Assembly (NCBI GenBank): GCA_037042915.1
Contig: CM073198.1
Coordinates: 930,001 to 994,000, forward strand
DNA length: 64,000 nt
DNA from: Auricularia sp. M13
Lineage: Eukaryota; Basidiomycota; Agaricomycetes; Auriculariales; Auriculariaceae
Reading direction: 5' to 3'
The notes under the pieces are model-generated. The model ran no database searches, was not told the DNA's origin, and was given only the letters and a program-made list of their open reading frames with translations. Numbering within the stretch: the first letter of the stretch is position 1; every line of letters starts with the position of its first letter. Shown here piece after piece: positions 27,100-45,832 of the stretch. Position numbers and translations under genes: made by a program.

Positions 27100-28731
27100 T
27101 CAAAGCAGCCGCAAAGTCCCTGACCGACGTCGCCGGTAGCACGATTTTAGCACCCCTGCCAGCCGTAACCTCCAAAACGGCGAGATTGGGGAAGCTCGGC
27201 CTGTCAGCAGCCGTCCCGGGTCCATCGTGGAGTGCCATAAGATCGCTGATCTCGGGCCGAGTTGGGCTGCAGCACCGGCACCAGCGTCAGCAGACTCGAC
27301 GACGAGCTCAATGTGCTCGACGCCCGGCGCGATGAGACGCTTGCTGAGTAGAGCGCCGCGCAACGCCCAGCCGACCGTCAGCGCGGAGAGATGTCGAGTC
27401 TGCACGTGGTTCCAGAGGAGCGAAAGCGACTGTGCGTTAGTAGTGGCGTCTCCGCGCAGTTCGAGCCAGAAGGAGCGGCCGTGACTGTCTGTGGCCTGCA
27501 GCTCGATAGAACCGAAGCTAGGCAAAAAGCTAAGCTCCACGTCGTCCGAGAGATGGTGCAGCGAGTGGAAGACTGTGTCTGCGTCGAAGGAGTTGCATCG
27601 CAGGGTAAATATACGAAATGCGGACCGGTCGATGATGGGGAGGACGGCTGCCTGCCATGTCCGCGTAATGCGGTCGAGAATGAGGTCCCGCAGACGCGGG
27701 ACGAGCGCGGCCACATCGTCCGGTGGCGCAGGAGGAACGTGGGTCGTGGGATAGTCGCTGAGCTCGGCGTTGAGAAAGACGAGGTTCGGGCAGGAGCGCA
27801 AGCAATGGTAAAACGCGCGCGCGTCCTTAAAGTTGCACCGCAAGCGCTGCAGCTTGCCGAGCGAGCGCGCGTCCGGCGGGCGCGGGATGTCCCACCAAAA
27901 ATCGCCGTAGCCGCGAAACTCGCGCAGCCGCGGGAGCTCGAGGTTCTCGAGCTGCATTGTCGACAAGGGCCAGTAGTACTGCTCGCCTTGCAGGGGCGTC
28001 AAGTGCCGCATCCGCAGGAAGCGCAGAGCATGGAACGCGCCGATGTGCTGTAGAAACTTGATAAAGAACGCGAGGTCGCCGAACATGTAAGTGAGCGATG
28101 CGATCCGGTGCGTGTGCGGCCGCACCACCTCCGCGAGCTGCAGCGCGAGGTCGTGATTGCAGTGCACAGGATAGGCGCGAATACTCATCGTAATACGGGC
28201 GCCCTTGCTGCGCCCGAGCCACGTCGCGACCTTGTGCAGATTGTGGATCGCCTGCGGCTCCTCGTCGTCTTTCCAGAGCAGGGCCTCGTGGCATTCGCAC
28301 GTTCCGACCCCGCAGCGCGACATACGCGAATGGACCGTCGTAAAGAAGTGCACATCTTTCCAGAAAGGCGCGTAGTCCGTCGCAATGACGCGCCAGGCGC
28401 GGCAAACGTGTGTAACGGCGATGAGCCGCCGCTTAGCAAGCCGCGACCAAATGAGGCACCAGATTTCGGGCGGAAGTCGCGCGTGCGGCAGACTGGCGTT
28501 GTGTTCCTGCTTAAATTTCGCCACAGTAGCCGCGCAGCGCTCTGATACGTCGTCACATAGCTCCTCGACAATATCCCTCGGATAACCCGCATTTCAGCCA
28601 CAATCTGCAGTTGCAGGCGCGCAGGATGCTCACTTGGACGACGGGCAGTACTCCTCGTCGGCGAGTTCGTCGTCGAGATCCTCGTACAGCCTGGGCAGCA
28701 GACGCTTCAGCACGGCAGCAGACCGCGACAT
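27100..28731 (-). CDS. F-box protein, paralogue A, with altered C-terminus
   Basis: Two exons: 28731-28634 and 28576-27100, with a 57-bp intron (GTGAGC donor, CTGAAA branch, CCGAG acceptor). The model has 524 residues. Exon 1 encodes MSRSAAVLKRLLPRLYEDL and an acidic end. The F-box is LPPEIWCLIWSRLAKRRLI, then VTHVCRAWRVIATDYAPFW, around residues 65-115. A conserved block ENLELPRLREFRGYGDFWWD follows. It is very close to the gene at 30328 throughout. The tail differs. The last ~45 codons are in another frame from the paralogue, whose ending (RPSFPNLAVLEV, then DFAAALTERECAIEL) is present here but in the neighbouring frame at 27238-27050. A small indel around 27240-27290 therefore replaced the C-terminus, unless it is a sequencing error. 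Presumed SCF receptor. Confidence 0.82.
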
Positions 28732-30327: not shown

Positions 30328-32007
30328 ATGTCGCGGTCCGCTGCCCTGCTGAAGCGTCTGCTGCCCAGCCTCTACCAGGACCTCGAAGCCGAAATGACTG
30401 ATGAGGAGTATTCTCCATCGTCGAAGTGAGCATCCTATGCGGCGAGCGTAAATTTGTGCTGAAATCCAGGTCCGAGGCAAATTGTTGAAGGGCTCTGTGA
30501 AGACGTCTTGAAGCGCTGCGCTGGCGCTGTGGGAAAATTTAAGCGGGAGCACAACGCTAGCCTCCCGCACGCGCGACTTCCGCAGGAGATATGGTGCCTG
30601 ATATGGTCGATGCTTGGTGAACGGCGGCTCATCGCCGTTACGCACGTCTGCCGCTCCTGGCGCGCCATGGCCATCGATTATGCTCCGTTCTGGACCGACG
30701 TGTACTTCTTTACGACTGTCCACGGGCGCATGTCGCGCTGTGGCGTCGGGACGTGCGAATGCCACGACGCGCAGCTCTGGGAGGAGGACGAGGAGCCGCA
30801 GGCGATCCACAATCTGCACAAGGTCGCGACGTGGCTCGGGCGCATCAAAGGCGCCTTTATCACGCTGGAAATACGCACATATCCGCTCTTCTGCAACCAC
30901 GACCTGGCGCTTCAGCTCGCCGAGGTAGTGCGGCCGCACGCGCACCGGATCGCGTCGCTCACCTACACGTTCGGCGACGTCCCATTCTTCGTCAAATTCC
31001 TTCACCAAATAGAGTCTTTCCCAGCGCTACGCTTCCTGCGTATGCGGCACTCGACGCTCCTGGACGGCGAGCAACACCACTGGCCTTTATCGACGTTGCA
31101 GCTCGAGAACCTCGAGCTCCCGCGGCTCCACGAATTTCGCGGCTACGGCGATTTTTGGTGGGACATCCCGAGGCCGCCAGACGCGCGCTCGCTCGACACG
31201 CTGCAGCGCTTGCGCTGCAATTTTGCGGACGCGCGCGCGTTCTACCACTGCTTGCGCGCGTGCCCGAACCTCGTCTTCCTCAATGCTGAGCTCAACGACT
31301 ATCCCACGACGCGCATCCCACCTGCGCCGCCGGAGGACGCAGACGCGCTCGTCCCGCGTCTGCGCGACCTCATTCTCGACCGCATAACGCTGACCTGGCA
31401 AGCAGTTGTGCTCCCCATTATTCACCGTCCCGCGCTTCGGATCTTCACCCTGCGCTGCAATTCCTTCGATGCGGACACTGTATTCTATCCCATGCGCTAT
31501 CTCTCGGACGGCGTGGAGCTCAGCATCCTGAATGAGGGCATGAGCACCGTCGAGCTGAAAGCCACCGACCGGCATTCGCGCTCCTTCTGGCTCGAACTGC
31601 GCGGACTCGGAGCGGACGGCCCCGGGATCGCCTCTCTTTCGCTGCTCTGGAATCACCTGCAGACCCAGCACCTGCGCTCGCTGACGGTTAGCTGGGCGTT
31701 GCGCGCGGCGCTGCTCAGCAAGCGTCTCGTCGCGCCGGGCGTCCAGCGTATCCAGCTCGTCGTCGAGTACGCCGATACTGGTCCTCGTGCTACAGCGCAG
31801 CTCGGGATCTACGAGCTCATGGCACTCCATAATGGGCCCGGAGCGCTAGCGGGGCGGCCCAGCTTTGCCAGTCTTGCCGTCTTGGAAGTTCGAGCTGGCA
31901 GGGGTATGAACATCGTGCTACCGGTGGCGTCGGTCAAGGACTTTGCAGCAGCTTTGACGGATTGCGAGTGCGCTATTGAGGCGTGTGATGTTGTGCTTCA
32001 GGATTAG
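30328..32007 (+). CDS. F-box protein, paralogue B (intact)
   Basis: Two exons: 30328-30425 and 30477-32007, 542 residues. The 51-bp intron starts GTGAGC and must end at CCGAG. The nearer CAG at 30467-30469 would bring in a stop, whereas the CCGAG join keeps the frame and gives the same protein order as the paralogues at 27100 and 43927. Exon 1 is MSRSAALLKRLLPSLYQDLE plus an acidic tail. The F-box is LPQEIWCLIWSMLGERRLI, then VTHVCRSWRAMAIDYAPFW. Leucine-rich blocks follow, and the ending is RPSFASLAVLEVRAGRG, then DFAAALTDCECAIEACDV. Head-to-head with paralogue A, 1.6 kb between the start codons. It is the best-preserved copy and serves as the reference for the other two. Presumed SCF substrate receptor. 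Confidence 0.9.
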
Positions 32008-43926: not shown

Positions 43927-45832
43927 TTACACTTGGTCCCGAAGCTCAACACCGGCGAGCTCGATCGCGCACTCCCTGTCGGTCAGAGCAGCCGCGAATT
44001 CTCTGACGGACGTGGCTGTTAAAACAACGCCGCTAGTCGACGACGTGATCTCCAATGCCACGAGATTCGGAAAGCTCGGCCGTCCCTAGGGTAGCGTGAG
44101 TATATATTGTTTTATATATACGTGTATATACCGCGTATATATACACGTATATATACAATTATATACTGGGCCCCTGAAAACTGCCAGTATATAAACCACA
44201 ACTACAATGCTTCGAGGGGGCTCTGGAGGTGAAAATTGCGTCAGCAAAATGGTCGACAGCGGCCCGTATTGCAGCCACTCCCTTGCCGTCGCCTGGACCT
44301 GCACCCTGCCTGCACCGGCCCGTCCCGCTACCGGCGCGCCGTCGAGTGCAATCAGGTCGTCGTTCCCGAGCCGTAGACCCATGACGGCGAGCTGGATGCG
44401 GGACACGCCCGGGGCGGCAATACGACTGTCCAGAAGCATCCCACGCAGCACCCAACTCAGCTTCAGCGTGCACAAATGTTGTGCGGGAAGGAGGGTCCAG
44501 ACATGCCAAAGCGCGATGAGAGCGGGCTGCGCGTCGACCATGTCATTGATGAATTCGATGCACCGCGATTTAGAATACTCGTCTTTCGCTTCGAGCTTGA
44601 CGGGGTCGTTCCGCGACAGGCCGCCCATGATGCTGAGATCCACGCCGCCTTCAAGATGATGCAGAGACTCAAATATCGTCTTGGCGTCATATTCGCTGTA
44701 CTGCAGAGCAAGACTCCTGAGCGCGGAGCGTCGCATAATGGGCCGCACAGCCGGCTCCCAGAGAGGCGTCATGAGGTCCATTACGAGCTCCCGTAGGCGC
44801 GGAGCGAGCGTCGCCTCGTCCAGCGGCACGGGGGGGGGCGGGTGGGCTGCCGAATGGTCGTCCAGCTCAGCATTCAGGACGAGGAGATCAGGGCACGCGC
44901 GCAGGCAGTCGTAGAACGATCGCGCATCCGAAAAGTTGCAAAAGAGGTGCTCTAAAGCACCTAGTGATCGAGCTTCCGGTGAATGGGGGATGTCCCACCA
45001 GAAGGAGCCATAGCCTTGGAACTCGCGAAGCCGTGGGACCTCGAGATGCTCGAGCTCCAGCTTGGCCATGGGCCAGGTGTTGTGCTCGTCTTCTAGATAA
45101 GTAATTCGCTGCATGTGCAGAACGTCCAAAGAGGGGAAGTCTTTGATCTCCTGCATGAAATCGACGAAAAATGAAACGTCGCCGAAAACGCAGACGAGAG
45201 ATGCAATCCGAGCTGCGTGCGGCTTCACGAGCTCGGCCAGTTCGGTCGCCAGGCGGTGTTCGGAGAAGACGGGATAGATGCAGACCTGCATCGAGATGGG
45301 AGCGCCTTTGCTGCGCGCAAGAAACGTCTCGACTTTGTCCAGATTATGCATCGGCCCTGGTGTATCGCCCTCCCACTGCTCCCAGGCGATGGCCTCCTGA
45401 CAATCGCACAGCCCGTCGTCGCAGCTCGAGCCACGCTCATGCACCGTAGTGAAGAAGCGCACGTTTTTCCAGAAGGGAGCGTAGTCGAGGGCAATGGCGC
45501 GCCAGGCGTGACAGACGTGGGTGGCCTCGATGAGATCCTGCGCGGGAACCAGGGACCAAACGTGGCACCAAATCTCCGGAGGAAGTCTCGCATGCGGGAG
45601 TCCAGCGTTGTGCGCCTTCTTGACTTTCGCCACAGCGGCAGCGCACTGCTCCATGACGCTGTCGCAGAGCTTTTCGACGGTATCACTCGGAATATCGGTT
45701 CAGGCACTTAAGCTCGCACGTTGGGCTTCTAGCTGCTCACTTCGTCAGATACTCGCCGTCCGCGCGTTCGTCTTTCAGGTCCTCGTGGATTATGGTCAAT
45801 AAATGTTGCAGCAGCGCAGAACACCGCGACAT
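43927..45832 (-). CDS. F-box protein, paralogue C, with a 240-bp insertion near the 3' end
   Basis: Exon 1 is 45832-45741 and exon 2 starts at 45685. The 55-bp intron again has a GTGAGC donor and CCGAG acceptor. The F-box is LPPEIWCHVWSLVPAQDLI, then THVCHAWRAIALDYAPFW. Blocks run parallel to paralogues A and B as far as LIALDGAPVAG. There the frame enters foreign text (44326-44087) and stops at TAG (44088-44086). The family ending (GRPSFPNLVALE, then VREFAAALTDRECAIEL) continues in the same frame right after that TAG, to a stop at 43929-43927. If 44331-44086 is spliced out (donor GTAGCG, acceptor CCCTAG), the protein is 534 residues with the normal C-terminus. If not, it ends with a novel Ile/Tyr-rich tail. 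Splicing is not proven. Presumed SCF receptor. Confidence 0.78.
44080..44326. mobile_element. 240-bp insertion with 7-bp direct repeats inside paralogue C
   Basis: CCGTCCC occurs at 44080-44086 and 44320-44326, exactly 240 bp apart. The uninterrupted paralogues show that only one copy belongs to the gene. The insert is a multiple of three and adds an in-frame TAG that can act as a splice acceptor. I find no terminal inverted repeats. It contains a strong hairpin at 44113-44155. It could be a small transposon, an introner-like insertion or filler DNA. Confidence 0.65.
44113..44155. repeat. AT-rich perfect hairpin
   Basis: 18-bp arms (44113-44130 and 44138-44155; core TATATACGTGTATATA) with a 7-nt loop, CCGCGTA. 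It lies inside the 240-bp insert, with further TATATA runs on both sides. Confidence 0.85.

Follow-up and report, generated by a model that had tools for sequence, protein, structure and literature searches.

Introners that derive from DNA transposons can recruit their splice sites from the element together with its target site, and the fungal introner families so far described, chiefly from ascomycetes, are reported to lack inverted ends and target-site duplications (PMC9860276). Splicing of a transposon out of an exon is reported for the maize Ds1 elements in titles cited in PMC3260210 and in PMC5432752 itself. Ac/Ds elements carry the end TTTCATCCCTA and are accompanied by 8-bp duplications (PMC3260210); duplications of this length are also made by fungal Zisupton and by an element of the Dileera lineage (PMC12730594). 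Here we analyse an insert in a fungal F-box-like gene that a preliminary description had proposed to be an insertion domesticated as an intron.

The gene lies on the minus strand of the window, by which we mean the whole 64,000-nucleotide stretch of DNA analysed. Its conceptual model begins with an ATG at 45832 and runs through a predicted 55-nt intron into a long exon (Table 1). The F-box-like domain PF12937 matches the product with 34.3 bits against a curated cut-off of 24.3, sufficient to count the gene as F-box-like, while PF00646 scores 19.0 bits, under its cut-off of 20.5. The last exon is interrupted by a 240-bp insert (44326-44087) flanked by the direct repeat GGGACGG, which is found at 44326-44320 and again at 44086-44080, as the preliminary description had it. 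Beyond the insert the sequence continues as GRPSFPNLVALEITSSTSGVVLTATSVREFAAALTDRECAIELAGVELRDQV with its frame open; the old tail, GRPSFPNLVALE...RDQV, restarts in frame at 44085 and stays open to its own stop.

Table 1. Features of the interrupted F-box-like gene and of its insert (window coordinates)
Feature	Position	Strand	Remark
Exon 1, MSRCSALLQHL...	45741..45832	-	In-phase splice to exon 2; conserved in the paralogue L014
Intron 1 (predicted, 55 nt, GTGAGC...CCGAG)	45686..45740	-	Conserved with L014
Exon 2 up to the insert, with F-box-like domain PF12937 (E 2.1e-8)	44327..45685	-	Pfam
Left copy of target-site duplication, GGGACGG (7/8 bp; eighth base G, not C)	44320..44326	-	
Truncated right part of a non-autonomous DNA transposon with terminal inverted repeats; 95% identity to the corresponding 230 bp of the complete C11 element	44087..44319	-	
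AT-rich imperfect palindrome in the insert, matching its reverse complement at 84%	44103..44165	.	
Right terminal inverted repeat TCACGCTACCCTA	44087..44099	-	
In-frame stop TAG (TA, transposon end; G, target site)	44086..44088	-	
Right copy of target-site duplication GGGACGGC	44079..44086	-	
Original C-terminal tail, displaced, GRPSFPNL...RDQV (52 residues and stop, frame still open)	43927..44085	-	Sequence reading

A search of the same genome for the gene family gave 89 matches (92 of 227 candidates scored), and besides the gene itself three close family members are among the matches listed, one outside the window and two within it. The closest paralogue among them, L014 (C6:1206111-1207466, outside the window), shares 82% protein identity with the gene and, at the DNA level, 87% identity upstream of the insertion site and 81% downstream; it carries no insert. 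The two members in the window show 52% identity. In one of these, L016 (from window position 30472), the site is uninterrupted and reads straight on as LMALHNGPGALAGRPSF. Because L014 and L016 are both insert-free, the insert is derived, and the site before insertion would be expected to have read GTAGCGGGACGGCC. In the other, L015 on the minus strand, the conserved C-terminal tail is out of frame, and the sequence just upstream (window 27225-27264) differs in length from L016 by 5 nt; unless the frame is corrected by an unrecognised intron, this member would have lost the same tail independently.

The preliminary description had called for a genome search for further copies of the insert, and this search located its source. 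It gave two long matches, one at the insert and one at C11:1851557-1851792, the latter with 94% identity over 236 bp; the remaining two hits come from an AT-rich palindrome at these two loci that aligns to the other strand. On C11 the element is complete: it measures 526 bp, is bounded by 13-bp terminal inverted repeats (TAGGGTAGCGTGA on one side, TCACGCTACCCTA on the opposite one) and is immediately flanked on either side by CCCCTGGC, a target-site duplication of 8 bp without mismatch. This copy is overlapped by no open frame that reaches 150 aa. The insert corresponds to the right 230-233 bp of this element, and over the right 230 bp the two copies differ at 12 positions without gaps (95% identity; JC distance 0.054). 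A solitary 55-bp left end of the 526-bp element, 95% identical, was found on C3 (L008:1501-1555; G000:C3:4254923-4254977), with no further element match beside it. The family as counted therefore comprises one full copy (C11), one right part (window) and one left end (C3), numbers that are lower bounds. The AT-rich palindrome lies near the right end of the element in both copies that have it (window 44103-44165; C11:1851573-1851635), and in the predicted RNA fold that of the window insert forms a long hairpin. At up to one mismatch the terminal repeat occurs 33 times in the genome and its reversed control 88 times, both lower bounds. A third exact match to the terminal repeat, on C9, was treated as chance, as homology to the element does not extend past the 13-16 end bases there; its surroundings resemble, by eye, a retroelement polyprotein.

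The sequence shows directly 230 bp shared with a complete copy on C11 that has its two ends and an exact duplication, paralogues free of the insert, and a stop formed where insert and target meet. The earlier reading of the locus as an insertion with target-site repeats is thus upheld, and the C11 copy adds that the inserted DNA is a transposon fragment. An origin of the repeats by chance was rejected, since on C11 an intact copy ends identically on the right and lies between perfect 8-bp repeats. The 7-bp repeats are seven of the eight base pairs of the target-site duplication, GGGACGGC, the last base of the left copy being different. The window copy lacks the left terminal repeat and some 290 bp, and two or three bases (GCC, the changed base counted in) lie between the left duplication and the homologous part. 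Very probably, what landed in the last exon was a small cut-and-paste DNA transposon, non-autonomous and hAT-like, of which a truncated copy is left as a scar in a transcript that is mostly unspliced.

In the history that we propose, insertion of the full element would have been followed by loss or alteration of its left half, of its left terminal repeat and of the final base of the duplication on that side, possibly when a gap left by excision was incompletely repaired. Replacement of a terminal base by its complement is a usual mark of hAT excision. The one-sidedness of the copy, with its left terminal repeat absent, would also fit filler DNA copied from a C11-like copy during the repair of a break, the 7-bp repeats having arisen by chance, but the right edge coincides exactly with the transposon end and the flanking repeat fits seven of the eight positions of the element's duplication, so that we regard this origin as very unlikely. 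As to age, dS between the gene and its paralogue L014 is 0.27, and the distance of 0.054 between the element copies therefore makes the insertion young relative to the paralogue split. Its age would not exceed roughly one fifth of that of the split, if rates are alike and if the element copies parted no later than the insertion.

Two traits of hAT elements are present. The 8-bp target-site duplication flanks the C11 copy on both sides and is matched at seven of eight base pairs by the window copy, and the short terminal inverted repeats of the C11 element are of the (C/T)AGGG...CCCTA type. The 5' end of Ac is CAGGG, and the TAGGG...CCCTA termini of the element resemble the Ac/Ds end. A domain search returned 21 matches to the hAT dimerisation domain in the genome, and at 20 hAT-domain loci, scanned over about 1.5 kb on each side, no paired ends and hence no transposase bearing these ends were found; among sequences starting with TA or CA the scan yielded only two single matches at up to three mismatches. 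We call the element hAT-like, its assignment to the superfamily being made only from its ends and the length of its duplication. It is short, has terminal inverted repeats and contains no long open frame (526 bp; none of 150 aa or more), as miniature inverted-repeat elements do, but it lacks their high copy number, with one full copy and two fragments as lower bounds and with fewer terminal-repeat matches than the reversed control gave. A 3.75-kb stretch on C8 (L068:132-3882; G000:C8:1228731-1232481) has TAGGGTAGCGTCA inverted at its two sides and long GC-rich inverted repeats that run on into C/G runs, and includes a fragmentary reading frame with the CxC1 cysteine cluster associated with KDZ transposases (E 1.4e-6). 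This stretch was not taken as an autonomous partner, because its inverted repeat continues outside TAGGG.

The consequences for the protein depend on splicing. The preliminary description called the insert frame-preserving, which holds in that the tail is in frame at 44085; the insert ends in a stop, however, and the unspliced protein is not preserved. Any insert has a one-in-three chance of keeping the frame. Read without splicing, the conceptual product has 563 residues, about 79 of them encoded by the insert and replacing the 52-residue tail. Most likely the mRNA is not spliced at the insert, and the protein would end at the junction TAG with an insert-encoded tail; the F-box-like gene would then be a variant in its tail or else a pseudogene in the making. 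It is highly improbable that the extension of 79 codons has been domesticated as a coding tail under selection. Its frame is open through the insert, whereas of 5000 sequences resampled from it by a first-order Markov model 2.2% are open over 80 codons in this frame; at the position of a TAC in the window copy, moreover, the C11 copy carries a stop in the frame. Against these points, the gene is one picked from many, the insert-encoded stretch has no Pfam match, and the codons that differ from C11 mostly change the amino acid; at the TAC/TAG site either state may be ancestral. We take the frame to be open by luck, at about the 2% level, and do not read it as selected.

Excision of the insert as a 246-nt intron, from GTAGCG at 44331 to CCCTAG at 44086, would bring the tail back minus two codons. 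Both motifs are present where the preliminary description placed them, the acceptor TAG at 44086 consisting of the element's terminal TA and the target's first G. Since the same TAG stops translation in frame, the tail can be restored only if it is spliced away. The donor is in phase with the acceptor, and after splicing the frame would stay open as far as the original stop, although the claim that this splice restores the normal C-terminus stands only in part: the tail is regained in frame, but in silico the junction reads LDGAP-GRPSF, two codons (V and A) short of the empty site LDGAPVAGRPSF. About 10 nt before the acceptor lies CTCAC, a single five-base match that is branch-like by the fungal consensus. 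The displaced tail, moreover, is intact, and dN/dS against L014 is 0.39 downstream of the site (52 codons) and 0.34 upstream, with no clear relaxation. Such a value would fit splicing but says little for so recent an insertion, the youth of the insertion relative to the paralogue split leaving a test of tail constraint with little power. Nor, with the tail of L015 out of frame, is there a sign that the tail must be restored.

The proposed donor itself is poor. Among the 84 GTs from 45685 to 43927, those of the insert counted, CCG/GTAGCG at 44330..44331 (-) comes 49th with a score of -5.20, and each of ten reference donors scores higher (-2.31 to 4.78, leave-one-out). These ten come from introns predicted from sequence, namely chaperonin exon pairs, intron 1 of the F-box-like gene and one gene on C11 taken by eye for a P450. 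The chaperonin set comprised nine exon pairs in four loci, a fifth locus, L063, being left out because its two matches share one open frame. Six of the nine gave a clear best intron, of 46, 50, 53, 56, 59 and 59 nt (one with two equal solutions); a pair in L065, 7 nt apart, had no intron-like solution, the first pair of L066 was dropped as ambiguous (candidates of 65-128 nt), and the first pair of L067 gave no candidate under the rule, two donors being read from it by eye. Small and derived from sequence as it is, this reference set serves only to lower the claim of an intron. At 246 nt, the implied intron would be about four times as long as those clearly placed, and intron 1 has 55 nt. Twelve in-phase GT donors lie within 366 nt of the acceptor, so that one near the site is to be expected anyway. 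Neither of the two other copies of the element is a known intron.

The best in-phase donors lie elsewhere, at 44451 in the old exon (-2.21) and at 44304 within the insert (-2.30), a little above the weakest reference donor (-2.31). An intron mostly within the insert, from AGG/GTGCAG at 44304 or CAG/GTCCAG at 44298 to 44086, would be in phase and add a few insert-encoded residues to the protein, with donors (-2.30 and -2.36) better than GTAGCG and, at 44304, level with the weakest reference; these donors still fall below nine or all of the ten, the introns would measure 213-219 nt against the 46-59 nt of those clearly placed, and we judge this solution extremely unlikely. The 246-nt intron, in favour of which the known recruitment of splice sites by DNA-transposon introners also speaks (PMC9860276), we hold to be unlikely. 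With a donor of this rank, an intron of this length, few copies of the element and the tail of L015 out of frame, the proposed domestication finds little reason in the sequence. That a low-copy, datable, hAT-like element with inverted ends should have supplied the 3' splice site of a newborn intron in this basidiomycete-like fungus, by the element's terminal TA and the first G of the target duplication, seems improbable.

The locus is a clear example, datable in rough terms, of an F-box family member interrupted by a small transposon, and it warns that an in-frame insert with short repeats may be the scar of a transposon. Were splicing to prove true, it would document the birth of an intron from a DNA transposon in a fungus, with an insert-free paralogue and a related full-length element in the same genome.

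Set beside non-autonomous hAT elements of the maize Ds type and of fungi, the element agrees in its short terminal inverted repeats ending in CCCTA, in the 8-bp duplication of its intact copy and in the C11 copy's lack of an open frame of 150 aa or more; it differs in that a transposase partner was not found in the 20 loci scanned and that the copy in the gene has no left end. Like introners that have terminal inverted repeats and duplications, it forms an AG from the element end together with the target site, but introners are families of many similar intronic copies, and here one full copy and two fragments were counted, as lower bounds (PMC9860276). As with maize Ds1, an element of hAT type sits within an exon and might provide splice sites; Ds1 is reported to supply donors and acceptors near its own ends (PMC5432752), whereas the donor proposed here belongs to the old exon and donor scores are low. 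The idea of an intron from an insertion thus has real precedent in introners and Ds1, and for this locus the comparison favours an ordinary transposon insertion.
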